Source: Mansonella perstans (taxonomy: Eukaryota; Nematoda; Chromadorea; Rhabditida; Onchocercidae). From it: DNA of 19,738 nucleotides. Each line of letters begins with the position of its first letter. The first letter of the stretch is position 1. Where the stretch lies: the NCBI GenBank assembly GCA_037074765.1, contig JBAMDO010000444.1, positions 1 to 19,738 on the forward strand. The letters are read 5' to 3'. Shown piece after piece: positions 213-18,000 of this stretch. A program made the translations under genes and the position numbers. The notes beneath the pieces were generated by a model. It worked only from the letters and a program-made list of their open reading frames with translations, was not told the origin of the DNA and did not search any database.

Positions 213-234
213 CTCAAACTTGGGTAATTAAACC
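213..234 (-). repeat. SL1 spliced-leader sequence inside LTR E
   Basis: A perfect 22-nt match to nematode SL1 (starts GGTTTAATTACC, ends AAGTTTGAG) on the minus strand, the sense strand of the LTR. It lies about 67 nt before the LTR 3' end. It is followed by ATTGAGACTG, not by the GTAAAC splice donor of SL RNA genes, so it looks like a copy made from trans-spliced RNA. Confidence 0.9.
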
Positions 235-404
235 ATTTGTTACAATTATTAATGAACGCACGCGGACATAATTAGAAACATTAATAAACGCGAAAAACAT
301 AAAAATATAAAATAACTGGATGATGAGATTGATGAATATCGCCATAAGAAAAAACCGTTATAATGGAAGTTTGACAGTTTATTTATAGTATTAGAAGGGG
401 GATC

Positions 405-581
405 AAAGACGTGATAAGTTGATCATAATGTGAAATAATAAAGGATAGAATAATGATGTGATGGGGAGATCATAAGATCAAATAATGAAGGATAGAATAA
501 AGACGTGATAAGTTGATCATAATGTGAAATAATAAAGGATAAAATAATGATGTGATGGAGAGATCATAAGATCAAATAATG
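405..581. repeat. Tandem duplication, period 94 bp, in LTR E
   Basis: The block starting AAAGACGTGATAAG at 405 starts again at 499 and runs to about 581 with only a few substitutions (for example GGATAGAAT against GGATAAAAT). It corresponds to about 1.9 copies and lies in the U3-like part of the LTR. Confidence 0.85.
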
Positions 582-707
582 TTCTTATTATTTATGTACG
601 GCTTGAATTTTTGGATGTAAGACTACAAAAATAAGAAATTAATCTTACATCGTAAAATTAATTATATTTATTTACTTATTGAAGCTCGCGGTATAGGTTT
701 CGCGACA

Positions 708-830
708 CATGTAGGTCTAGACTTCGGTCCCCTCTCTGTTAAAACTGAGAGTGGAAATATCAAACGATGGGTACTCTGTTTACTGAGAGTGGAAATATCA
801 AACGATGGGTACTCTGTTGTAGAAACCAGA
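708..830 (+). pseudogene. BEL/Pao integrase core fragment (element C, right part)
   Basis: Seen: directly after the solo LTR the frame reads VGLDFGPLSVKTESGNIKRW, the start of the integrase catalytic core; the D in GLDFGP fits the first Asp of the DDE triad by family knowledge. A 38-bp tandem duplication (744 to about 819) then shifts the frame, and the rest of the core, including the second Asp and the Glu, is missing before the DUF5641-like tail begins near 845. The gene is therefore broken by the LTR, by the duplication and by an internal deletion. No function is possible. Confidence 0.75.
744..819. repeat. 38-bp tandem duplication in integrase core
   Basis: ACTGAGAGTGGAAATATC at 744 recurs at 782 with the same following bases (GATGGGTACTCTGTT). 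The length of 38 is not a multiple of three, so the second copy puts the integrase out of frame. Confidence 0.9.
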
Positions 831-844
831 ATACCACGCGAGGA

Positions 845-1141
845 AAAAATTGTGCTAGTCAACGAACCTTATATTCCTCGTAGTGTGTGGAAGTTAGCTA
901 GGATCAAAAATAAAGAAAGGAAAGGATGGGATGGCTAGAGGTGCCATCATAGAAATGCCACGTGGAAAAGTTCTCACCAGACCAGTAAATGTTTTGTGTC
1001 CCCTAGAAGTGGAAGATAACGAAACTATTCAACAACCAACTCCTCAAACCCTGATTCAAAACCCAGAACCAGAAGGACCAATTGCTACGAGAACCAGAGC
1101 GGCAACAAGGAAACGAAATGAAATCCCACCAATTTCGAAGA
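845..1141 (+). pseudogene. Integrase C-terminal DUF5641-like tail of element C
   Basis: Seen: VLVNEPYIPRSVWKLARI (852-903) in one frame and RGAIIEMPRGKVLTRPVNVL (about 934-995) in the next, with a one-base frame change and a TAG around 925-937. This is the small beta-barrel at the end of BEL/Pao polyproteins (DUF5641 in family terms). It is followed by an acidic/proline stretch and a basic linker PIATRTRAATRKR (about 1078-1122), after which the frame runs without a stop into the env-like gene. The ATG at 931 is only the first Met after the frameshift, not a natural start. Confidence 0.75.
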
Positions 1142-2733
1142 CAATAACGAATTGCTTATATTTAATATCGCTGATTCTCATAACCGCAGTTGAGACAAAC
1201 TCTAAGCAAGACTATAAATGGACATCGGGCACTCCCTTTAATATGCCACAGAAATGAATTGCAATAAATTTACACTCGGAGTCACATTCGGATACTTGCA
1301 ATCAAATGTAGTAATATTACTCGAACAGTGTGCACTAAGGCCTTTTTGCGACTATCGTTGTCAGTAGTTTCAGACGAAACTATTAGTTCTGCTACATCTT
1401 ACCATTTATGCACAATTTTAAACGATCAGAAGGAATTAAATGGATCACCGCTAAAGAGAATTAAGCAGAATAAGTGGACAACGAGCAACAATATTCACTA
1501 TTCATACGGCTGGTTAGGAATAAGATCAATCAACCACTAATTTCATCCTAAAAAAGGGATCACTCCTCCTTTATGATGGTAAGAGATTACTATTGGATCT
1601 CGATGATACAAACCACTGCAGAACACAAAGTGGTAAACGTGTATTACAAACAAGTATCATACTTTGGAATAATACCCAGGCAACCAATAAATACTTTTAT
1701 AAAAGAATTGGGAGATATAACGCCCAAATATATGAAAGGCATGTGATGATAGATGATCTGCAAATATCATTCACCTTTGAGAGGAATGAGAAGCTACAAG
1801 ATACAACTTGTAACTTTTCTAACCCTCATCTTATGAATGGAGACATAATCATCGATGAAGGAGTCGATCAACGGCAACCGAAGGATACGATGAACTCGGA
1901 TTCCAAAGATCAGTTGATTATGCAAGAATCAAGCAACGACGACGAAAATAAGTCAAGTAAATTTGATCCAGAAAACATTAAATTTCAATATATTTTTGAT
2001 GTTGTAAACTTACAATTTAAGCAAAAATTAATTGAGACACAACTACGAAGTTGTGAAAATAGAAATAGCTTATTACTTCTAATAGAATGGTTATCTACCA
2101 GCAACCCAACCTTAGTAGCTAAATTATTACTCCAAAGAAGCGATATTATAGCTAATACAGTTGATAACAAGTTACATACAGCACCTTGCAATGGTAAACA
2201 AGTCTGAATGGAGAAGAGTTAAATTCAAAGCAGGCATAGTTAGCAAATTCGAAATTGAAAGAATCAATGCAGAATTAGAGATCCTAGCCCAAAGACATGA
2301 AATTATCAACTTAAGAACTAATCTACCAAGATCGAAGTTACTCTGGACAGAAGTAGAAGAACAAGGAGAAGAGTTAATTCAACAACTGACAGCACAAATT
2401 GAGAAAACTACTGACGCAATAGAAGAAGAACTAGCACACGCAATAGCTCATTGGAAGCTCATTACTATTGGTGTAATTAGTTCTATAATTTTATTTACGA
2501 TAATTGTTGTAGAAGTGAAATTTAAATTGATTAACTTCATTTTTCATTTTCTATGTAACAACAAAACAAAAAACATAGAATTCATTCCCACTACAAGAGC
2601 CCAAATTCTTTTAAATAAAGATAACGATAAAATTTACTGTGATCGTTATCTTATACCTTATATTCCAATCATCCATTCTGCAAACTCATCAACTCCCCTC
2701 TCTCTGGAATATCGCGAAATTTGCGAAATTTAA
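1142..2733 (+). pseudogene. Env-like glycoprotein gene of element C, broken copy
   Basis: Seen: an N-terminal hydrophobic segment (NCLYLISLILITAVE) that would be the signal peptide, a cysteine-bearing ectodomain, then a conserved-looking block (QYIFDVVNLQF... LRSCENRN... NPTLVAKLLLQRSDIIA, about 1986-2150), a long charged helix (about 2250-2450), a membrane anchor (LITIGVISSIILFTIIVVEV, about 2458-2517) and a short tail. Compared with the A copy at 5762, the start ATG is ACG (1142), a TGG codon is TGA (1255-1257), and the frame changes at least three times (near 1260-1330, 1540-1593 and 2161-2207). The stop at 2731-2733 lies inside the following LTR. The central block resembles the fusion glycoproteins of chuviruses and gB-like class III proteins, which BEL/Pao elements including Ascaris Tas are reported to carry; that is inference. 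It is a dead copy. Confidence 0.7.
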
Positions 2734-3206
2734 AATAAACCTAATCTCAATCAAAGGGGAATAAATTCTATAATTGCCAGCTATCCCATCAATCATTTGT
2801 TTAACTTACATTCACTATGAATTTTGGTCCATTATATTAACATCATTAATCAATCCATCTTCTTCCCAATTATCAACTGTCGCTCTTACACAAGCAGCAT
2901 AAATGCTTTCATCATGTCCAGACTAATTAGCATGAATCCAATCTTCCCCCTATCAAATATCACTGATCTACTACTATCATCATGATCTTTGAACCATTAT
3001 AGTCTCCACCTCTTCTTCTCCCCAATAAACTGTCAAATCTTCAACAAGCATCAGTTAATGCTCTCAACAGTTCCAGACTGGTTGGTATCTATCAAGTTCC
3101 TCCCTTTTTATTATATTAACTTTTATTATACGATTTACTTCGCGTTTCGTATATTACTTCGCGTTTTCATGTATTATCATTATAATTCGTGTTTGTTAAT
3201 GTTATT

Positions 3207-3212
3207 AATAAA
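3207..3212 (+). promoter_or_regulatory. Poly(A) signal AATAAA in LTR A, immediately before SL1 array
   Basis: AATAAA ends one base before the first SL1 copy begins (3214). Cleavage usually falls 10-30 nt downstream, which would put the RNA 3' end inside or just after the first SL1 copy. The same arrangement is seen in A'. Confidence 0.55.
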
Positions 3213-3213
3213 A

Positions 3214-3489
3214 GGTTTAATTACCCAAGTTTGATGTGCGAACACAATTCAACACAACGCAACTCAACACAAAGGTTTAATTACCCAAGTTTGAGCTGCG
3301 AACACAATTCAACACAACGCAACTCTACACAAAGGTTGTGCGAACACAATTCAACTCAACGCAACTCAACACAAAGGTTTAATTACCCAAGTTTGAGGTG
3401 TGATCACAATCCAACTCAAATTCCCACAATTCACTCAATTCGATTCAACGTAGATAACTCAACAAGACGTTTAAATAATCAAGTTTGAG
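3214..3489 (+). repeat. SL1 tandem array in LTR A
   Basis: SL1 copies at 3214-3235 (last base T, 21/22), 3274-3295 (perfect) and 3376-3397 (perfect), and a diverged copy ending CAAGTTTGAG at 3468-3489. The period is 60 nt for the first two: SL1 plus about 38 nt of AC-rich spacer (GCGAACACAATTCAACACAA and onward). Between copies two and three lies a unit that keeps the spacer but has lost most of SL1 (from 3334). All copies are in the sense direction of gag. Confidence 0.95.
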
Positions 3490-3624
3490 GTTTATCACAA
3501 ATCAAATCACCATCCTCCACCACACATACATAAACAAGTTTACCATCAACATTAATTCCTAAACAAACTTTAGGAAACATTATCCACAAGTTGAAACTCG
3601 TAAAAACTTCCACGACAAAAGTTT

Positions 3625-3642
3625 TGGTGCCACGAGCCGGGA
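3625..3642 (+). promoter_or_regulatory. Primer binding site of element A
   Basis: TGGTGCCACGAGCCGGGA lies seven bases after the LTR end. TGG pairs with the CCA end of a tRNA; the primer tRNA would have A as discriminator base and TCGTGGC as 3' acceptor strand. The identical 18 nt stand at the same place in element B. I could not assign the tRNA species. Confidence 0.8.
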
Positions 3643-3651
3643 GCGTTCGAT

Positions 3652-5046
3652 ATGCCGACTTCACTACATCACTCAGCGCTGCCAATAATGGAAAGAATAA
3701 TCGAACTTCTGGAAGAAATGCAGAAGCTCGATTTATCACAACCAGATCGAAACTTACCATTCGAAGAACAAAAAAGACAATACGAACATAAGAAACGAAT
3801 GGTAAAGGACAAAGCTATTCGACTGATGAACGTTAACAACTTGGAAGCGATTAATCAAAAATGGTTGGATCTCATACAAAACACCAGCATGATTGGAAAG
3901 AAGAAAGAGGAAAAAGAAAAATATGTGAAAATTGTCAGCGACAAAGATGGTATGTTACACATAATGTATAAGGGTAGAGAAGCTGTCATTACTCTTAATT
4001 CACTATATAACGATTTGGAACTAGCCTTTCAAGAAGAAAGGTCATTGGTTACCATGGAACAGAAAATGGTTAAACCATCACCTGTTAGTCATTCAACAAC
4101 ACATCTACCAAAGCTACCACTACCAACCTTTAGTGGAGACATAAGGCTTTGGAAAAAATTCTGGAATAGTTTCAATTCATCTATACACCAACAAGAATTA
4201 CCAGATATTCAAAAAATTACTTATTTGTTATCATGTTTAAAAGGAGAAGCATTGGAAACAATAAGAAGATTCGATGTAGCTCCTGGGAACTATGAAATAA
4301 TAAGACAAGTTCTCATAGAAAAATATGGTAATCAAGCAACCATCAAGAAATCGTTATATAGTGAACTGTATTCAATTCAACGCAACGATAAGGAATGGAA
4401 TACAAGAGTCGATGCAATGGAAAAAATTCTTCGACAACTAGAAGCAATGGGCGAGAATCTGGAACATTCCAGTATAGAAACAGTAATCGAAAATATACTC
4501 CCACCATGGATTCTGGAAAGGGTCTACCAGATGAAGGAAGAAAAGGAATCTTGGTCAGTAAGTAGTTTACGAAAATTCCTAATGACATTAATTCACAGAA
4601 GCGAAGAAGTGAGTAGAAGTCAAAAACCTCAACAGGAATCAAGTACAAGAAGAGTACCTCATTTTCAAAAGGGAAGAGGAACCTCTGCCCTATTCATAAC
4701 AAAACAATCAAATGAGGTAAAAAACCCTCAGTCAAGCAATAATTCAAAGGTCAACAAAGAAAAAAGACCTTGTATATTTTGCAATGAAAACCACTGGGAT
4801 AATGAATGCCCAAAGTACACAACGGCCAAACAACGATACGAACGCCTGAAGGAACTCAAGGCGTGCACTAACTGCTTCTGTACGAAGCATGCAACAATTG
4901 ACTGCAATCAAAGGAAACGCACATGTTTCCATTGTAAAGGCCAACATAGTACGGCATCATGCTACAAGAAATACTGCTCGACCAATGGTGGATCCAGCAA
5001 AGAAGAAACAAATTCGACAATCATCACAAGTTCACTAAATCATTAA
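3652..5046 (+). CDS. gag: Gag polyprotein of element A (DUF1759, three zinc knuckles)
   Basis: 464 codons from the first ATG, ten bases after the primer binding site. Domains: an N-terminal helical, charged region (1-145), a DUF1759-type capsid segment starting LPKLPLPTFSGD (about residue 152) with WKKFWNSF, ITYLLSCLKGEAL and ATIKKSLYSELYS, and three zinc knuckles at about 374-386 (CIFCNENHWDNEC), 405-418 (CTNCFCTKHATIDC) and 425-437 (CFHCKGQHSTASC). Gag forms the particle and the knuckles bind the element RNA. The ORF is open from end to end, unlike the gag of B and D. It ends with TAA just before the protease, which lies in the +1 frame; the two overlap by eight bases. In B the two are in one frame, so the stop and shift may be damage or a real frameshift site. 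Confidence 0.9.
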   Translation: MPTSLHHSALPIMERIIELLEEMQKLDLSQPDRNLPFEEQKRQYEHKKRMVKDKAIRLMNVNNLEAINQKWLDLIQNTSMIGKKKEEKEKYVKIVSDKDGMLHIMYKGREAVITLNSLYNDLELAFQEERSLVTMEQKMVKPSPVSHSTTHLPKLPLPTFSGDIRLWKKFWNSFNSSIHQQELPDIQKITYLLSCLKGEALETIRRFDVAPGNYEIIRQVLIEKYGNQATIKKSLYSELYSIQRNDKEWNTRVDAMEKILRQLEAMGENLEHSSIETVIENILPPWILERVYQMKEEKESWSVSSLRKFLMTLIHRSEEVSRSQKPQQESSTRRVPHFQKGRGTSALFITKQSNEVKNPQSSNNSKVNKEKRPCIFCNENHWDNECPKYTTAKQRYERLKELKACTNCFCTKHATIDCNQRKRTCFHCKGQHSTASCYKKYCSTNGGSSKEETNSTIITSSLNH

Positions 5047-5713
5047 CCATCAAGGCAAGAAGGTTCTATTAATATGCAAAGAAATCGAAGCAGTCAACCC
5101 AAATAAGCCGGAGATCCAAGAAGACGCCTTCGTATTATTCGATCCAGGCTCCCAATCATCGTTCATCACAAAAAAGTTAGCCAGTCGTTTAGGTCTAACT
5201 GAAACCGCTAAGGAAGAATTAAAACTTTTTTCCTTTGGCAACCAACTTCCCAAGGTTTATCAAACTAACAAGGTAAACGTGGGAATAAGAAGTGTAGGAT
5301 CCAAAATCACAAATATCAATGCTTATGCATTAGATTATTTAACGGATAAACTACAAATTATTAATCCACCTTCTTACGATGTGAATTCCATCTCATGTCA
5401 GAAACAATTAGACGAGTCGGAAGGATATTGGAGACGACCCGACATCATAATCGGAGTAGACCACTTCTTCGAGTTTACGCAACCATACAAAGTCCACATT
5501 ATGTCATCAGGTTTTTATTTACTTCACACCAAGGTAAGACCGATAATAACAGGCTGTGGATATATCAATACGATGTGTGAATCTGATAGTGGTAATTCCA
5601 TTAATGTAGCCACTATCATCACTAGTCCAAACATAGATCAGTTTTGGAAAATGGTACAACCAACTGATCAAGAAGGAAAAGTTCTAATCAGACCAATTGC
5701 TACAAGAACATGA
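5039..5713 (+). pseudogene. Aspartic protease (DUF1758/A17-like) of element A, active-site Ser replaced
   Basis: The frame is open from 5039 with no ATG before 5279, so it would be made as a fusion with Gag. It opens KKVLLICKEIEAVNP and carries FDPGSQSSFI, where the catalytic motif D-S/T-G is D-P-G (5141-5149); the B copy has DSG. The protein then follows the B protease (PDIIIGVDHFFEF, SGFYLLHTKVRPIITG) to DQFWKM near 5650. There reverse transcriptase should begin, but the frame passes to a DUF5641 remnant (GKVLIRP) and the pre-env linker (IATRT), then a TGA at 5711-5713 where C has AGA. RT, RNase H and almost all integrase are deleted. The protease is very likely inactive. Confidence 0.75.
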
Positions 5714-5761
5714 GCGGCAACAAGGAAAAGAAATGAATCACGACCAATTTCTGAGACAATA
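5714..5761 (+). other. Basic linker between pol remnant and env of element A
   Basis: After the TGA the same frame continues AATRKRNESRPISETI up to the env ATG at 5762. It matches the linker of C at about 1098-1141, where no stop is present. Confidence 0.6.
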
Positions 5762-6302
5762 ATGAATTGTCTATGTATAATGGCGCTGGCTCTCACAATC
5801 ACAGTCGAGACAAACTCCAAACAAGACTGTAAATGGATAACAGGTACTCCATTCAATATGCCACAAAAGTGGAACTGTGATGAATTTACTCATCAAAATG
5901 TCACATTGACACACGTCACAGTTTACACGCGCACTCACACACGGATACCTGCTATCAAATGCAGCAATATTACGCGAACGACTTGTAGTAAAGCCTTTCT
6001 GCGACTATCCTTATCAGTAGTTTCAGACGAAACTATTATTTCTCCTATATCATACCATTTATGCACAAACTTAAACGACGAGAAAGAATTAACTGGATCA
6101 TTGCTAAAAAGAATCAAGCCAAACAAATGGACGACAAATAACAACGTACAATATTCCTACGGTTGGCTCGGAACAAGATGTCAATCTACCACTAACTACG
6201 TAATTGAAGAAGGATCACTCCTCCTTTATGATGGTAAAGGATTATTGTCGGATCTCGATGATACAAACCACTGCCGAACACAAAGTGGCAAGTGTGTATT
6301 GC
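5762..6302 (+). pseudogene. Env-like glycoprotein of element A, N-terminal part, cut by LTR A'
   Basis: The ATG at 5762 starts a hydrophobic signal-peptide-like segment (NCLCIMALALTITVE) followed by a cysteine-bearing ectodomain without frameshifts for about 180 codons: C at the KWNCDEF, IKCSN, TTCSK, YHLCT, GTRCQ, NHCRT and GKCVL positions. It matches env of C in order (C 1142-1645) but has no internal breaks. At 6303 the inverted LTR A' begins and the frame ends 20 bases later at 6322. The rest of the ectodomain and the membrane anchor are absent. Seven cysteines suggest disulfide bonds in a secreted or membrane protein. It would have given the particle a surface protein; as it stands it could give at most a short secreted fragment. 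Confidence 0.75.
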
Positions 6303-6428
6303 TGTCGTGGAAGTTTTTGTGAGTGGTCAACTTGTGGTTAGTGTTTCCTAAAGTTTGTTTAGGACTTGTGTTGGTGGTACACTTAATTGTGCATATGTCG
6401 TGGAGAATGCTGATTTGATTGTGATAAC

Positions 6429-6758
6429 CTCAAACTCGGTTATTAAACGTTGTGTTGAGTTATCTGCTTGAATTGTGGGATAACCTCAAACTTGGTTGTT
6501 TAGACTGTTGCTTGAGTTATCTACGTAGAATCGATTGAATGATTTGTGTGGATTTGAGTTGGATTGTTGTCGCACCTCAAACTTGGGTAATTAAACCTTT
6601 TATTAAATAACATTGAGTTGAATTGTGTTCGCACAACCTTTGTGTTGAGTTGCGTTGTGTTGAATTGTGTTCGCAGCTCAAACTTGGGTAATTAAACCTT
6701 TGTGTTGAGTTGCGTTGTGTTGAATTGTGTTCGCACCTCAAACTTGGGTAATTAAACC
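6429..6758 (-). repeat. SL1 tandem array in LTR A'
   Basis: On the minus strand, perfect SL1 copies lie at 6737-6758, 6677-6698 (period 60) and 6576-6597. Diverged copies lie at about 6485-6506 and 6429-6449. A partial unit without most of SL1 stands at about 6610-6650. The order and spacers match LTR A, but A' holds one unit more. Confidence 0.95.
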
Positions 6759-7191
6759 TTTTATTAATAACATTAACAAACACGAATTATAATGATAATA
6801 CATGAAAACGCGAAGTAATACACGAAACGCGAAGTAAATCGTATAATAAAAGTTAATATAATAAAAAGGGAGGAACTTGATAGATACCAACCAATCTGGA
6901 ATTGTTGAGAGCACTAACTGATGCTTGTTGAAGATTTGACAGTTTATTGGGGAGAAGAAGAGGTGGAGACTATAATGGTTCAAAGATCATGATGATAGTA
7001 GTAGATCAGTGATATTTGATAGGGGGAAGATTGGATTCATGCTAATTAGTCTGGACATGATGAAAGCATTTATGCTGCTTGTGTAAGAGCGACAGTTGAT
7101 AATTGGGAAGGAAGAAGATGGATTGATTAATGATGTTAATATAATGGACCAAAATTCATAGTGAATGTAAGTTAAACAAATGATTGATGGG

Positions 7192-7196
7192 ATAGC
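7192..7196. repeat. Target site duplication of element B (left copy, ATAGC)
   Basis: ATAGC at 7192-7196 recurs at 11409-11413 directly outside the two LTRs. LTR A, which has the uninterrupted site (CCAGCTATCCC near 2780 on plus), carries ATAGC only once. This proves the insertion point. Confidence 0.95.
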
Positions 7197-7546
7197 TGTC
7201 GCGAAATTCATAACGCGAAATTCCCAATAGGGTTTAAATCTGATTCTATTAACGGCTTTTATGAGCCACCTAAGTAATTTGTAATGTTTGATCTCTTTGT
7301 TACAATTATAAGCTGTCAAAATCTTTCCTACCATAACCTAACAAAGAGGCAGCTGCAATTAACATCTTACTAACCAAACCCATTCTGTAACTGCGCCGAA
7401 ATCCTTTGTTTCATGCTTATGCTTACATGCAATGTATTGTACCTTCTCAACCAAGCTTATCTGTACAAAGGATTTGCTTTTTTATGATCTTTAATTTCTT
7501 ATAACTCAACTCACTAATACAAGTTTTCTCCGCCTACAATACTCAA

Positions 7547-7554
7547 TATATAAA
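7547..7554 (+). promoter_or_regulatory. Putative TATA box of element B 5' LTR
   Basis: TATATAAA stands about 350 bp into the LTR. Transcription would start near 7577-7585, about 140 nt before the first SL1, leaving an outron-like leader. The same box is at 11023-11030 in the 3' LTR. Confidence 0.5.
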
Positions 7555-7563
7555 CTCTCAATC

Positions 7564-7588
7564 ATCCCAAAAAGACCATTTTTGGGAT
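7564..7588 (+). other. Hairpin at the predicted transcription start of element B
   Basis: A perfect 10-bp stem (ATCCCAAAAA against TTTTTGGGAT) with the loop GACCA. It lies 10-34 nt downstream of the TATA box and is repeated unchanged at 11040-11064. Confidence 0.6.
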
Positions 7589-7724
7589 TTGGGATTTGTT
7601 CACATCCACGGCTACTGGTTCTATCCTGCTCATCATTTCCGCTTTATTATATGTTAATGTTATTAAATGCGCGTTGTATATAATTGTTACTTAATTCTCG
7701 CGTTATCCAATTATTCTAGTAAAA

Positions 7725-7846
7725 GGTTTAATTACCCAAGTTTGAGGTGTCAACACAACGCAACTCAACACAACGGTTTAATTACCCAAGTTTGAGGTGT
7801 CAACACAACGCAACTCAACACAACAGTTTAACATCCCAAGTTTGAG
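7725..7846 (+). repeat. SL1 tandem array in 5' LTR of element B (2 units plus diverged copy)
   Basis: Perfect SL1 at 7725-7746 and 7775-7796, period 50 (SL1 plus a 28-nt spacer, GTGTCAACACAACG and onward). A third copy at 7825-7846 differs at four bases (18/22) and is preceded by AG in place of GG. The spacer differs from that of LTR A but shares the CAACGCAACTCAACACAA core. Confidence 0.95.
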
Positions 7847-7890
7847 ATTCGACTGTGCCACGTTACAAAAACTTTCCCGACAATATTTTT

Positions 7891-7908
7891 TGGTGCCACG
7901 AGCCGGGA
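7891..7908 (+). promoter_or_regulatory. Primer binding site of element B
   Basis: TGGTGCCACGAGCCGGGA, the same as in A, eight bases after the LTR end. The gag ATG follows at 7912. Confidence 0.85.
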
Positions 7909-7911
7909 ACC

Positions 7912-9474
7912 ATGTCGAGCAACTTTATTGCCAGCATAGAACCGGTACTACAGGAGTTGGGACAACTGATCGAGGAAACCAAGGGATTGGACTTAACGCC
8001 TCTCGATGAGCAGCTACCAAACAACGAGCTCTCCATACAATGCGAGGCGAGAAGAAGAACCCTCAACCAAAATAGCAAACTCCTCGAGTTATACATTGGC
8101 ATGATCGAATCGACCAATGAAAAATGGATGGAATTTATCCAGACAGTTTCGTCGCCGCTGAAGAAGATGGAAGAGGAAGAAAGATATACGAAGGTCATCA
8201 ACGAAAAGGGTATTTTTACTTTGTTAACTAGCGCTAGGAAATTGCATGTGCTTTGTAAAATACCTTTACAGGAGATTGAAGAAACATTGAAGGGACTAGG
8301 TAGGGTTAAAATAGAATCACCAGTCCCACAAGAATTCCAACAACAAGCGCCACGACAAGTTGAATCAACAGTTACCCTGCCTAAATTACCCCTGCCAACA
8401 TTCAGTGGTGACCCTAGGGTATGGAGACAATTTTGGAGTGGCTTTGAGGCCGCAGTCGACAAGCACCCGATTCCAGCCATCCAAAAGTTAAATTATTTAC
8501 TCTCTTGTCTCCAAGGGGAAGCTTTGCTAGCTGTTAGAGGCTACGACATCGCTCCCGAAAATTATGAACCAATAAAAGAGATTCTTATCAATAAATTTGG
8601 AAAAACGTCTACCATCAAGAAGTCCCTCTTCAAGGAATTGGTGGATTCCATTAAGGGGAGCGAAAGAGATTGAAAAGAAACAATCGAAGCGATGGAAAGA
8701 GTATTCCGACAGTTGGAAGCCCTAGGGGAGAATCTGGAACAAACTATCTTTGAATACGTCATCGAGGCAAGTCTGCCGAATTGGGCTCTAGAGAAGGTGT
8801 ATGAACAAAAGGAGAAAGAGCAAGTATGGTCGGTTGCTAAACTCCGATCATTCTTATGGAAACTGATTGATAGAAAAGAGGAAATGGCCAAAAGTCACTT
8901 CTCTAGTAGTGGAAAGGCAAAGGATTCAAAAGATTACAAGCCTCATAAGTTTCCACGTAATACCAGAGGAGAAACATCTGCCCTTGCTGCAAACGAGCAA
9001 TCTAATTCAAAGGGTCATACAGCGGTCAACGAGTCAAGAGAGGTTACAACGAGAAAACCACGGAAACCTTGTGCCTTTTGTAATAAGAAACATTGGGATA
9101 CCGACTGCCAGGAGTATCCCACCCTCAAACAACGATTGGAACGACTGGGGGTAATCAAAGCATGCCTCAATTGCCTTAACAAAGGACATGAGGCAAAGGA
9201 TTGCAGTAGGAGCAAACAAAAATGTTTCTACTGCAAAAGTCCACACCATAGTGCATTGTGTCATATCAATTATGGCGTACAAAATGTTGGGCCAGTCGAT
9301 CAGACTCCGACTTCTCCAACCTCGACCAATTCAACGATAAGAGGGTCAAATCAAGGAGCCAAGGAAGTTTTACTCCTGTGCAAAGAAATCACAGTGGGTA
9401 ACCCAAGAAACCCAAAAAGCCAAGAAAGGGCCCTAGCAATGTTTGATAGCGGCTCACAATTATCCTTTATATAA
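7912..9474 (+). pseudogene. gag: Gag (and protease start) of element B with in-frame TGA
   Basis: The ATG at 7912 (context GGGAACCATG) follows the PBS; an upstream GTG at 7855 lies in the LTR and is not a eukaryotic start. One frame runs to 9474, broken only by TGA at 8671-8673 where A has a Trp codon. Domains match A: DUF1759-type region from about residue 156 (LPKLPLPTFSGDPRVWRQFW, LNYLLSCLQGEALLA), zinc knuckles at about 387 (CAFCNKKHWDTDC), 418 (CLNCLNKGHEAKDC) and 438 (CFYCKSPHHSALC), then protease start with the intact active site FDSGSQLSFI (9445-9453). Here Gag and protease share one frame. A two-base TA insertion at about 9470 ends the frame. Gag is truncated to 253 aa by the TGA. 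Confidence 0.9.
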
Positions 9475-10001
9475 CTAAGGATCTGGCAAGGCGCCTTAAT
9501 CTTCAAGGAAAAGAAGAAGGTCAAATGCGGATTGCTTCATTTGGCAATAAGAAGCCAATGCGACATCCCTCAACCAAAGTAAAAATTGAAGCAAAAATAG
9601 GACCGGATGAAGTTATCTGGTTTGAGGCTAACACGATCGATTACTTGACAAATAAATTACAAGTAGTCAACTTAAAGGATCAGGATTTAACCTCGATAAT
9701 CGACCAGGACCAATTAGAAGGCCCTAAAAGTTATTGGAAACAACCGGATATACTCATTGGGACGTACTCATTTGGACGATATACTCATTGGGACGATATA
9801 CTCATTGAGTAGTCACTTCTTCAAATTTATCCAAATAGGAAAAGCGCAAAAATTAAATCCGGATTTTCCTTACTCCACACCAAGCTTGGACCTATGTTAG
9901 CAGGAAGTGGACACATAAATGGGATTCCAATTCTTGATTCAGAGAAAGCCGAACCAGTATGTATGGCTAACGTTACCGGTCCGGACGTCGACCAATTCTG
10001 G
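9475..10001 (+). pseudogene. Protease remainder of element B, frameshifted
   Basis: After the TA insertion the frame continues TKDLARRL and RIASFGNKKPM (up to 9812). A local triplication of about 17-20 bp (9747-9810) interrupts the IG..HFF region, and further shifts lie between 9812 and 9894. From 9894 it follows the A protease again (GSGHINGIPI, DVDQFWKLE). At least three breaks after the active site make it nonfunctional. Confidence 0.8.
9747..9810. repeat. Local triplication in protease of element B
   Basis: The block GATATACTCATTGG appears at 9748, in altered form (GTACTCATTTGG) at about 9764, again at about 9778 and 9796, each joined by GACG or GGACGA. In A the same place is a single IGVDHFF stretch, so this is an insertion by slippage. 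Confidence 0.7.
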
Positions 10002-10618
10002 AAATTAGAAATGATCGGCATTCAAGAATCCCCCACAGTAGATGATGATCATCAAGCTATAAAACATTTTGAACAAACCATCGTTATGATGGATGGAAGA
10101 TATAAAGTACGTTGGCTGTGGAAAAGCTCCACACAAAGACTAAGCAACAATTATGGATTATGCCATGGACGTTTGAAATATCTAGTTAAACGTCTACAAC
10201 TCCAATCACTTCTTCATTTATACGACAAGACAATTAAAGATCAATTACAAACTGGGATAATTGAAGAAGTACCTCAGAATGATGAGGTTGGTGTTATACA
10301 TTATCTACCACATCACGAGGTGCTAACCCCTGGCAAAAATACAACCAAATTAAGAATAGTTTATGACGCTTCAGCACGTCACAAAGGATTTAAAAGCCTA
10401 AACGACATATTGTATCGAGGTCTATGAGGATAGTGATAACTGCTGATGTCGAAAAGGCAATCTTACAAATAGGGCTACAAGAAAGCGAAGACCAGGAACC
10501 TATTGCGCGACGAACAAGAAGCCACACGAAGTTGCGCAATACAAGCAACAGCCGTATCAAACAATGGGATGTGTTAAAAGATCAACAACAACAACCAGGA
10601 GCGATAAAGGAATTATAA
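10002..10618 (+). pseudogene. N-terminal RT fragment of element B fused to pol/env linker
   Basis: Seen: [48 protein letters not shown]-like IHYLPHHEV and LRIVYDASARHKGFK mark the start of a Pao-type reverse transcriptase. Relative to D, about 45 bp are missing after DILYRGL, which shifts the frame (stop 10425-10427). The next frame reads ITADVEKAILQIGLQESE (about 10436-10490), the first catalytic-Asp motif of RT, and is then joined directly to EPIARRTRSHTKLRN (about 10495-10545), which matches the basic linker ahead of env in A and C. The polymerase core (YVDN box), RNase H and integrase are gone. A stop at 10616-10618 ends the frame. Confidence 0.85.
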
Positions 10619-10672
10619 CCATAACTACCCTCAATCCCCATTCTAGCTTCTTCTCTCTCCTCCCTTTGGGAG
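10619..10672 (+). other. Pyrimidine-rich tract and GGGAG before 3' LTR of element B
   Basis: CTTCTTCTCTCTCCTCCC is followed by TTTGGGAG and the LTR. The plus-strand primer of LTR elements is normally a polypurine tract; here only the short GGGAG is purine. Confidence 0.5.
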
Positions 10673-11408
10673 TGTCGCGAAATTCATAACGCGAAATTCC
10701 CAATAGGGTTTAAATCTGATTCTATTAACGGCTTTTATGAGCCACCTAAGTAATTTGTAATGTTTGATCTCTTTGTTACAATTATAAGCTGTCAAAATCT
10801 TTCCTACCATAACCTAACAAAGAGGCAGCTGCAATTAACATCTTACTAACCAAACCCATTCTGTAACTGCGCCGAAATCCTTTGTTTCATGCTTATGCTT
10901 ACATGCAATGTATTGTACCTTCTCAACCAAGCTTATCTGTACAAAGGATTTGCTTTTTTATGATCTTTAATTTCTTATAACTCAACTCACTAATACAAGT
11001 TTTCTCCGCCTACAATACTCAATATATAAACTCTCAATCATCCCAAAAAGACCATTTTTGGGATTTGGGATTTGTTCACATCCACGGCTACTGGTTCTAT
11101 CCTGCTCATCATTTCCGCTTTATTATATGTTAATGTTATTAAATGCGCGTTGTATATAATTGTTACTTAATTCTCGCGTTATCCAATTATTCTAGTAAAA
11201 GGTTTAATTACCCAAGTTTGAGGTGTCAACACAACGCAACTCAACACAACGGTTTAATTACCCAAGTTTGAGGTGTCAACACAACGCAACTCAACACAAC
11301 GGTTTAATTACCCAAGTTTGAGGTGTCAACACAACGCAACTCAACACAACAGTTTAACATCCCAAGTTTGAGATTCGACTGTGCCACGTTACAAAAACTT
11401 TCCCGACA
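10673..11408 (+). repeat. 3' LTR of element B (736 bp)
   Basis: Same as the 5' LTR over its whole length by eye, apart from one extra 50-bp SL1 unit (736 against 686 bp). TATA box at 11023-11030, hairpin at 11040-11064. It ends CGACA, followed by the TSD ATAGC at 11409-11413. Confidence 0.95.
11201..11372 (+). repeat. SL1 tandem array in 3' LTR of element B (3 units plus diverged copy)
   Basis: Perfect SL1 at 11201-11222, 11251-11272 and 11301-11322, period 50, and the diverged copy at 11351-11372. The 5' LTR has two perfect units, so the array changed length between the two LTRs of one element. Confidence 0.95.
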
Positions 11409-11483
11409 ATAGCTGGCAATTATAGAATTTATTCCCCTTTGATTGAGATTAGGTTTATTTTAAATTTCGCAAATTTCGCGACA

Positions 11484-11825
11484 ATTGGTGTAATTTTAGA
11501 ACTACAACCGTTTCTCTACTACTATTTAACAAGGTTAAAGCACTTTTCTTGTTGATTACCGTCGCATTTCCTTGCTCTTCCTTCTCCTTCTGCGGCGGCG
11601 AAACTTTCTGGGTGAATTCCAGCCATTTTTCATTGGTGATTCGATTATGCCAATATATAACTCGAAGAATTTGATTTTTTGATTGGAGGTCTTCTTCTCA
11701 CCGCGCATTATTTGGAAAGTTTTTTGTCTGGTAGCTGTTCGTCGAGAGGCATTAAGTCCAATCCTTTGGCTTCCTCGATGAGGTGTCCCAACTTCTATAT
11801 TGCGGATTCTATGTTGATAATAGGC
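11484..11825 (-). pseudogene. Gag N-terminal remnant of element F
   Basis: On the minus strand, in several frames, it matches B gag: TAGAAGTTGGGACACCTCATC, GLNASRR (out of frame), KFFELYIGIIES and NATVINKKSALTLLNSS in place of B's LELYIGMIES and TKVINEKGIFTLLTSA. The remnant ends at 11484, where LTR A' starts. PBS and start codon are absent: the LTR end at 11826 is followed directly by sequence that corresponds to about the fifth codon of B gag. Confidence 0.75.
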
Positions 11826-12789
11826 TGTCAAACACGGCCGTCGTCGTAGTTGTAGCGCAGTCGAATCTCAAACATTGGTAATTAAAGCTTTTATTAGAAA
11901 AATTTGATAACACGGAGTTCAACATGACAATTGCTAATATCGCATGAATAACTTTAAAATTTAATGGTAAAATTATTATTGTAATAAAAGTGGGATAATA
12001 AGAAGAACGAAGCCAGTCGCTGGTATGAATAGACTGAAAATGGTAGAAGAGAAAGAATTCATAGCGCAAGGTTAAAATGATAGAAGAAGGAGGATTGATA
12101 GATTACGGCATAGACGCCTTTGTCGGCATGGCATAGATTAGAGATGATAGAAAATGATTTACAGATGTCGTGAAGAATTGTTCTGAGAGGTAGACGTCTG
12201 CCAATATTGTTCCAGCGGGTTTGTCCGGGAGCGTTGTATTGAGTTGAGTTGATCGTGTTGCGGAAAACCTGTGGTAGGATAATAAAACCTTTATTGAAGC
12301 GCGCCACAGAGTGAGGAATGTACAACGTACCAAAGGATACAGTTTGTGGATCGAGTGTCTATTTATAGTCACAGGAGAGGCGGGATTAAGGCTTAATACA
12401 ATGATCCTAACGTTAAAATGATAAAGAGGACATTAATAATGGTTGAGAATGGATGATTTACCAAAGTACTTGTATGAATAAACAAAGATGTTATTTGGTG
12501 GAAAGATTGACGTTCACATTGGGTGAAGAGAGAGAATTAATTGTTTAAGACATCGGGTCTTTGAATGGTAATATAACGCCGTAGACGATGCTTTGTTAGC
12601 TTACTGTAGGAGAGAGGATTAAAAGTACAATACAAAACCTTTGTTATAGACAGATATCTTAAGCTATTGCTATATAAAGGGTGTGAATTTACATATTAAC
12701 AAAGAACATGGAAATACTTTACAATGTTATTAACATTTATTTATAATTTAATTTATTGAGTTATTGTAAGTTTCGCGAAATTCGCGACA
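11826..12789 (-). mobile_element. LTR F (5' LTR of remnant F), minus orientation
   Basis: On its own strand it starts TGTCGCGAAATTTCGCGAAAC (ending at 12789 on plus) and ends near 11826 with TTTGACA; this 3' boundary is less sure. A diverged SL1 (19/22) lies at 11867-11888 and is followed by ATTCGACTGCGC, the same as after the last SL1 of B (ATTCGACTGTGC). It is about 964 bp. Element F has lost its internal region beyond gag. Confidence 0.75.
11867..11888 (-). repeat. Diverged SL1 copy in LTR F
   Basis: 19 of 22 bases match SL1 on the minus strand. There is only one copy, so F may keep an older state of the LTR or have lost its array. Confidence 0.8.
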
Positions 12790-16579: not shown

Positions 16580-16873
16580 TCTATTGTTGACGTGCTGTAT
16601 TTAATGAAGTCCCAAACACGACTAAATTTCAGATATACACAGGGTTGCCTCCAAATACGGATCAATCTATTGTTTACTTTACTGCCTGTTTTAAATGAAA
16701 TAGATTAGATTCTTCCAAATGCGACTCAATCCACAGTTTTTTATTTACTTTACTGCCTGTTTTAAATGAAATCCATTAGATTCTTCCAAATTCGATTCAA
16801 TTTACAGTTGACGTGCAGCTTTTAATAAAGTCTATTGGATTATTCCAAACACGATTCAATCAATATTTACACG
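16580..16873. repeat. Diverged tandem repeats, about 60-86 bp units
   Basis: Four to five units start near 16580, 16666, 16730, 16801 and 16860. Each contains a form of TTTAAATGAAATnnATTAGAT, then TTCCAAAnnCGAnTCAATC; two also share TTTACTTTACTGCCTG. The unit length varies by indels. The array ends where the decayed element D begins, so it may be a minisatellite into which D was cut or joined. Confidence 0.75.
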
Positions 16874-17137: not shown

Positions 17138-18000
17138 TTGCTAAAACGTCCAGCATCAATAAATTGAAAATTATGATCTTTACGCATTCGCGAGACCTCT
17201 GATACTTTAATTCGTTATTATTGTCAAAATCGTAATCCCATTGTGGCCAGCTAGTTTCTTCTTGTACTAGCCATGAGGGACCATGCCACCATGGCGTGTA
17301 ACTTGTGAGTTGTTTTGGGTTAAGACCCCTTGTTGCCACATCTACGGGATTCTCTTCTGAAGGAATATAATGAAAGGTAAATTTCGTTCTACGTATTTCC
17401 TCGACTCGATTTTGAACAAATCTTGGCATTAAGTTAGAATGGTTCTTTATCCAATGTAAGGCACATTTAGAATCCGACCATAAGATTACCTTTATATTAG
17501 TAAGGTTTAGTTGTGTCTTGACGAACTGTCCTGCTCGTGTTCCGATAAGTATAGCCATCAATTCTAGGCGTGGTAATTGTCATTCCTTTGATAGGAGCAA
17601 TGCGGGATTTGGCGAAGATAAACGATGAAGTTGTTCCACACTTTTCCTGACTCACTAGATAAACTGCTGCTGAATATGCTAAGCTTGAAGCATCAGTGAA
17701 CACATGTATTTCAATTAAGTCAGTAAAGGTTATGGCAAATCGTAGCAAGTTAATTATAACCGTTGCCCCTTCGACGATAAGAGACTTCCATTTTTTATGG
17801 TCTTGCTCGTGTAATATTTGATCCCAAGATTTATTTTCTTTCCACAGATGTTGTAGAAATATTTTGAATTTTATCATTATTGGGACTAGAAATCCTAATC
17901 GCATTGTGATGCGACGAATTGTAGAATCGTTCGTTTCGTTAATTTTGGTCCAACCCATGAATTTAATTTTACTTGGATGATATCCTGGCAGGGATTCCAC
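17100..18000 (-). pseudogene. RNase H region of element D, one frameshift
   Basis: Frame 18000-17497: PGYHPSKIKFMGW, RRITMRLGFLVPIMIKFKIF and IEIHVFTDASSLAYSAAVYL (17683-17710, first Asp of RNase H). Frame 17561-17100: MAILIGTRAG, VILWSDSKCALHWIKN (second Asp), then EENPVDVATRGLNPKQL (about 17295-17345) and WWHGPSWL. The two frames change over in 17497-17561. RNase H would cut the RNA strand during reverse transcription. The order and motifs are those of BEL/Pao elements; the gene is broken but well kept. Confidence 0.85.

Follow-up and report, generated by a model that had tools for sequence, protein, structure and literature searches.

The host spliced leader SL1 at the R position of BEL/Pao LTRs in Mansonella perstans and its probable role as R region

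In the nematode Mansonella perstans, the 22-nt spliced leader SL1 is located at the R position of the LTRs of BEL/Pao retrotransposons. In LTR retrotransposons and retroviruses, the R region is a short repeat that lies next to the poly(A) signal, occurs at either end of the RNA and is used in first strand transfer. Based on comparison of LTR sequences and on two insertions in which U3 is joined to host mRNA by SL1, it is proposed, with a probability of roughly 70%, that SL1 represents the R region of these BEL/Pao elements and bridges the first strand transfer. The best reading of the same data is that trans-splicing would supply this R-region SL1 at least in part. The window is a stretch of 19,738 nucleotides from contig C444 of an assembly of 75.73 Mb in 539 contigs, and all counts given below as genome-wide refer to this one genome.

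SL1-bearing LTRs in the window

A pattern search of the window yielded eleven perfect SL1 22-mers, starting at 3274, 3376, 7725, 7775, 11201, 11251 and 11301 on the plus strand and at 213, 6576, 6677 and 6737 on the minus strand. This confirmed the count of an earlier note made from the letters of the window, namely eleven perfect copies in five LTRs (one in LTR E, two in A, three in A' and two and three in the LTRs of element B) in addition to diverged copies. The latter start at 3214 (1 mismatch), at 3468, 7825 and 11351 (4 mismatches each), at 11867 (3 mismatches, in the LTR that the earlier note had named F) and at 6485 (5 mismatches). The interval 3214-3489, to which the feature had been assigned, does contain real SL1 copies but covers part of LTR A only; the SL1-bearing feature spans 213 to 11888. 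The assignment of the elements to BEL/Pao also held, with matches to DUF1759, DUF1758 and Peptidase_A17 in reading frames of the window. The following features were recorded:

213-234, minus strand: perfect SL1 of LTR E, after AACAAAT (sequence reading)
2878-3617, plus strand: LTR A, with SL1 at 3214-3235 (1 mismatch), 3274-3295, 3376-3397 and 3468-3489 (4 mismatches)
3604-5713, plus strand: frames of element A, with DUF1759 (3604-5046) and DUF1758 peptidase (5039-5713)
6303-7094, minus strand: LTR A', with perfect SL1 at 6737-6758, 6677-6698 and 6576-6597
7192-7196, no strand: left target site duplication of element B, ATAGC
7197-7882, plus strand: 5' LTR of element B (TG...CA), direct repeat of 10673-11322 (99.4% over 650 aligned bases)
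7725-7746, plus strand: perfect SL1 directly behind AGTAAAA, 5' LTR of element B
7775-7796, plus strand: perfect SL1, second array copy, 5' LTR of element B
7825-7846, plus strand: diverged SL1 (4 mismatches), final array copy, 5' LTR of element B
7846-8673, plus strand: gag-like frame with DUF1759 (7.6e-19)
7891-7908, plus strand: predicted primer binding site TGGTGCCACGAGCCGGGA, 8 bases behind the 5' LTR of element B
10673-11408, plus strand: 3' LTR of element B
11201-11222, plus strand: perfect SL1 directly behind AGTAAAA, 3' LTR of element B
11251-11272, plus strand: perfect SL1, array copy, 3' LTR of element B
11301-11322, plus strand: perfect SL1, array copy, 3' LTR of element B (this array exceeds that of the 5' LTR by one 50-bp unit)
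11351-11372, plus strand: diverged SL1 (4 mismatches), 3' LTR of element B
11409-11413, no strand: right target site duplication of element B, ATAGC
11867-11888, minus strand: SL1 of LTR F (3 mismatches)
17469-17898, minus strand: Pao peptidase (Peptidase_A17) of a further element

BEL/Pao elements produce short target duplications of 4-6 bp. Element B combines TG...CA LTRs with the ATAGC duplication, and a further element on C4 is flanked by AGCGC. The perfect SL1 copies of element B are arranged in 50-bp units, two in the 5' LTR versus three in the 3' LTR, and no single long frame was found in this element. The predicted primer binding site recurs at 3625; a search for tRNA genes in the window returned none. 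LTRs A and A' belong to a segment that is repeated in inverted orientation (88% over 900 bases), and LTR A' is a mosaic, in which a second U3 tail (AATAAAA) precedes the last SL1.

Furthermore, positions 2712-2784 and 11409-11481 represent inverted copies of 73 bases with 100% identity; the flank of LTR A thus repeats the insertion site of element B, and an undisturbed copy of B's target site is present in the window. Tandem repeats were observed at 405-581 (47- and 94-bp periods, upstream of the SL1 of LTR E on the sense strand of this LTR) and at 16673-16809 (71-bp period, 1.9 copies).

Placement of SL1 across the genome

The 22-mer of the window is the host SL1, as it serves as leader in the tandemly arrayed SL1 RNA genes of this assembly (Rfam RF00198, 121.8 bits); identity with the leader of this species, on which the earlier note had made its claim depend, was thereby established. 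Exact matches to SL1 plus gene body were obtained at 68 places genome-wide, 67 of them on C518, where positions 7301-28034 are occupied by an array of 67 SL1 RNA genes with a mostly 307-bp period. Within one 3.1-kb stretch of this array, Rfam searches detected no family besides SL1 RNA, and no 5S rRNA there. A perfect SL1 followed by a diverged SL RNA-like body at C181:393356 is apparently a stray SL1 RNA gene or pseudogene.

In total, 266 perfect SL1 copies were counted genome-wide and none of the reversed pattern, and chance or a simple repeat was rejected as their source on these numbers. Outside the 68 SL1 RNA genes, 198 copies were found. Most of the 192 places examined were covered over ~640 bases only; one of them (on C191) is among the 68 genes and C181:393356 is gene-like, leaving 190 LTR-type copies for analysis, with 7 of the 198 non-gene copies outside it. 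Derivation from copied SL RNA genes was also discarded, as the SL RNA body follows SL1 in none of the 190 copies once the two gene-like places are set aside.

A poly(A)-type hexamer, the signal typical of the U3/R border, directly precedes SL1 in 155 of the 190 copies (exact AATAAA 0-3 nt away in 149, a variant hexamer in 6). Among the other 35, 29 follow ...CAAC and three follow ...ACACAAA, and these 32 belong to arrays, in which a first copy precedes them; the three non-array copies (C65, C205:94789 and C215:85604) have U3-like sequence upstream, without hexamer. Grouping of the 155 first copies gave 22 clusters for the last 100 bases of U3 and 33 for the first 60 bases of U5.

The earlier note had suggested a genome search for SL1 outside the SL RNA genes, and such copies are linked to LTRs rather than scattered, as seen from the hexamers and also from the Pao domains. 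Peptidase_A17 was matched 106 times genome-wide, and among the 44 best of these matches a same-strand SL1 is located within 7 kb in 28 (1.2% expected) and an opposite-strand SL1 is near in 2. Six sites where a 5' LTR was expected, next to Pao matches without a nearby perfect SL1, yielded at best stretches with 7-10 mismatches, which counts against the R-region reading; two of them resemble a decayed SL1 (C66, 7 mismatches, behind AATAAAG; C45, 8 mismatches, before a familiar U5), and the other four of the six do not. Exact SL1 was absent from IMG/VR and GTDB contigs, as expected for viral and prokaryotic collections.

These placements bear on the reading that trans-spliced RNA delivered SL1 to a Pao LTR on one or a few occasions, after which it was inherited as functionless, ordinary U5. 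The same inference has been printed for Brugia malayi, SL1 decays in old copies, the arrays in the two LTRs of one element differ by whole units, and mutations common to several elements affect SL1 much as they do the flank (19/35 versus 24/35 variant cells; 54 listed variant places), so that a steady renewal of SL1, which should appear as unshared SL1 mutations, did not emerge from this comparison. Nevertheless, such an inheritance is considered unlikely in view of the position right behind the hexamer in 155 of 190 copies (149 exact) from 22 U3 clusters, and because SL1 formed the junction in two insertions of host mRNA and in chimeric LTRs (see below). The earlier note had concluded that SL1 became fixed in the LTR from trans-spliced element RNA. 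Entry into element DNA is upheld by the host-mRNA joints and the Pao link; as a merely passive trace, SL1 had been described too modestly, given its R position and its use as a joint.

Host mRNAs and LTR halves joined at SL1

In two insertions, the order U3-AATAAA-SL1 continues into a host mRNA exactly at the 3' splice site of the parent gene, and an intron of this gene is missing. The first insertion (C35:8819, minus strand) proceeds from U3 and TTAATAAA through SL1 into GTGCAAAACAATGTCGAC..., the 5' end of the gene for ribosomal protein L6, as identified by PF03868 and by eL6 chains of the PDB. With a slash marking the joint, the L6 gene on C539 reads TTTTTGTAG/GTGCAAAACAATG, and SL1 of the insertion is joined at TTTTTGTAG/GTGC. 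Moreover, a 317-base intron behind AAAAAGGGG in the gene is absent from the insertion, which agrees with the gene in 234 of 239 aligned bases and in 19 of 19 bases of the next exon. SL1 was sought in 3.2 kb of the C539 gene and not found (best match with 7 mismatches). Behind the L6 piece, Pao reverse transcriptase and peptidase follow, and a 3' LTR was found at 5342, 3.5 kb further along. On either side, the insertion is bordered by the duplication ACCAC, and its two U3s are 97.8% alike over 360 bases.

In the second insertion (C535:691869), U3-TTAATAAA-SL1 leads into AGAAAGGCG..., which in the NAP gene on C181 (PF00956, found in a close copy) is the exon behind TTGCTTTCAG; SL1 is joined at TTGCTTTCAG/AGAAAGG. 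Bases 1-90 of the piece are identical to the gene, the following intron is absent, and no SL1 was detected in 701 bases of the C181 gene (best match with 9 mismatches). The piece then meets the complement of the primer site and an inverted LTR at a shared TCCCGG. Positions 691869-692103 thus comprise two inverted U3 ends around the NAP piece and the primer-site complement inside one 5-bp duplication, TAAGC, which flanks the whole insertion; the left LTR starts with TATCGCG instead of TGTCGCG. Apparently, this is an aberrant reverse transcription product that still integrated.

The L6 and NAP pieces, both fragments, have the hallmarks of SL-tagged retrogenes, i.e., they are intron-free and carry the leader at the 3' splice site of the parent. 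Judged from these sequences, SL1 must in both insertions have been acquired when the host mRNA was trans-spliced, and the joining of U3 at SL1 must predate integration. A joint of the type U3-SL1-host mRNA is what a first strand transfer would be expected to yield if SL1 served as the repeat.

Further joints at SL1 were observed between LTR halves. The LTR at C526:280733, flanked by the duplication ATATT, has a U3 94% like that of one family and a U5 96% like that of C104, the U3 of which is only 65% like that of C526. At C445:13776 (U3 0.94, U5 0.97) and in LTR A' of the window (U3 0.92, U5 0.96), the two halves are also closest to different families; mosaic structures were seen in A' and the C309 group, where units of another family separate the SL1 copies. 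Halves from different families, switched at SL1, would fit the strand-transfer step seen in the host-mRNA insertions. Homology for strand transfer, a further trait of R regions, is hence indicated indirectly, through products, namely the two host-mRNA joints and the LTR chimeras. One of three rows of an automatic chimera screen (C220) was dropped, its U3 partner being the L6 insertion.

A test of block discordance covered 153 of the 155 first copies. Like U3 combined with unlike U5 was found in 232 of 1788 pairs at SL1 and in 35 of 613 at the next downstream anchor, compared with 0/515, 0/621, 0/768 and 0/1104 at four upstream anchors. In the reverse direction, 3 of 613 pairs were discordant at SL1 versus up to 77 of 768 elsewhere, so that SL1 is singled out in one direction only.

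DNA recombination after integration, or assembly error, at a repeated 22-mer could in principle create both chimeras and host-gene joints; array length and TTTGAG vary between LTRs of one element, and the C535 structure is inverted. However, perfect 5-bp duplications lie outside both host-mRNA insertions and the C526 chimera, which therefore appear to have integrated as finished molecules, and the host parts lack introns. This explanation is accordingly rated as very improbable.

Directly behind a full SL1, a partial SL1 was detected in 10 of 190 copies when lengths of 4-22 were tested, with 6 bases in eight copies and 21 bases in two. Both lengths correspond to what follows an AG (CCCAAG/TTTGAG and AAAG/GTTTAATT). 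Distinct shifted joint contexts between copies follow an AG in 65 of 83 cases, mostly at SL1 ends within arrays; CAG/CTCAAC and GAAG/AATATTGG are the informative ones. The 18 joints not after AG include a 2-base slip in C510, diverged SL1 ends and damaged array copies. At C46:115120 and C429:5057, two SL1 copies stand head to tail without spacer, the second minus its first G and with 2 mismatches.

The AG joints could represent 2-base microhomology instead, and next to acceptors of the TTTCAG type, AAG and GAG are weak. In the C4 element, the U3s of which are identical over 400 bases, an extra TTTGAG is present in the 3' LTR and not in the 5' LTR; TTTGAG can thus arise by slippage, and it was downgraded as proof of trans-splicing.

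The AG joints nevertheless suit splicing better than an arrangement in which transcription starts at an encoded SL1, R begins there, and the RNA imitates a trans-spliced mRNA for translation with no need for trans-splicing. Such a start would also give a perfect SL1 at the R position, and host SL1 mRNAs could jump in through chance homology. TATA-like motifs do not define a start site, since their positions vary (-25 to -84) and most copies lack such a motif. In two U3 clusters, motifs at -48/-49 would direct initiation to a point ~20 bases ahead of SL1, although others are found at -25 to -34. An encoded start is considered a decidedly unlikely source of the leader.

Proposed mechanism and known systems

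For SL1 as R region, the following course is proposed. Transcription from U3 would yield element RNA that extends into the 3' LTR, and polyadenylation is predicted to follow AATAAA and hence to fall in or near SL1. Trans-splicing, presumably regular for genomic RNA, would place SL1 at the RNA 5' end before U5, with AGs in or near the encoded SL1 as putative acceptors. The resulting strong-stop DNA would terminate in the complement of SL1, and its pairing with the SL1 of the 3' LTR would accomplish the first strand transfer. Of these steps, the last pairing is the one recorded by the two host-mRNA insertions, and the earlier ones are inferred. Tandem SL1 arrays may result from slipped transfer between SL1 copies.

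Regarding the consequences, we lean slightly towards the view that the R function has been handed to the host: each cycle would take its 5' R from SL1 RNA, U3 and U5 would be rejoined at SL1 every time, families would trade LTR halves, and any SL1-bearing host mRNA could be copied into a mobile U3-SL1-gene insertion. If this is true, the strand-transfer repeat is provided by a host RNA-processing pathway, and trans-splicing is linked to retrotransposition. The presence of SL1 in nematode LTRs would be explained, a route for shuffling host mRNAs and LTR halves would exist, and Pao LTRs are predicted to track the SL sequence of their own host across nematodes.

The earlier note knew of no such SL1 trace in LTR retrotransposons; in its basic form, however, it has been published. 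For Brugia malayi, Foster et al. 2020 described 120 'integral' SL1 copies, of which 60 lie no more than 1 kb from PAO elements, some of these elements having SL1 at both ends on the same strand, and inferred that leaders had been added to expressed elements and integrated (PMC7181701). As in M. perstans, SL1 is found outside SL RNA genes, in Brugia about half of it near PAO, and, as far as the available text of that account goes, both the association of SL1 with PAO and its derivation from trans-spliced element RNA have already been published (PMC7181701). By contrast, the same portion of the account does not include LTR placement, poly(A) signal, R role, arrays, host-mRNA joints or LTR swaps (PMC7181701).

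In flatworms, partial leaders occur in LTR and LINE loci and are, as here, ascribed to trans-spliced transcripts; in the accessible part of the report this is a remark on partial leaders, without an R role (PMC12582326). Dinoflagellate retrogenes carry relict spliced leaders, repeats of which mark repeated rounds, and they resemble the present case in that the leader of a trans-spliced mRNA became fixed in DNA through reverse transcription (PMC6050394). According to the portion of that source at hand, they differ in that genes rather than LTRs are concerned and the leader tags the copy instead of forming a joint to U3 (PMC6050394). For the Ty3/Gypsy element Cer1 of C. elegans, spliced mRNA with and without SL1 is described, and the 8-kb genomic RNA is, in the passages available, not SL1 trans-spliced at that site, which counts against the R-region reading (PMC3315495).

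A literature search, outside which most subscription papers and preprints lay, revealed no report of a spliced leader as R region, of U3-SL-host-mRNA joints or of LTR swaps. Into the R region of retroviruses and LTR elements, foreign RNAs can be recombined. Compared with the classical R region, the repeat proposed here differs in being a host leader that other RNAs can donate.
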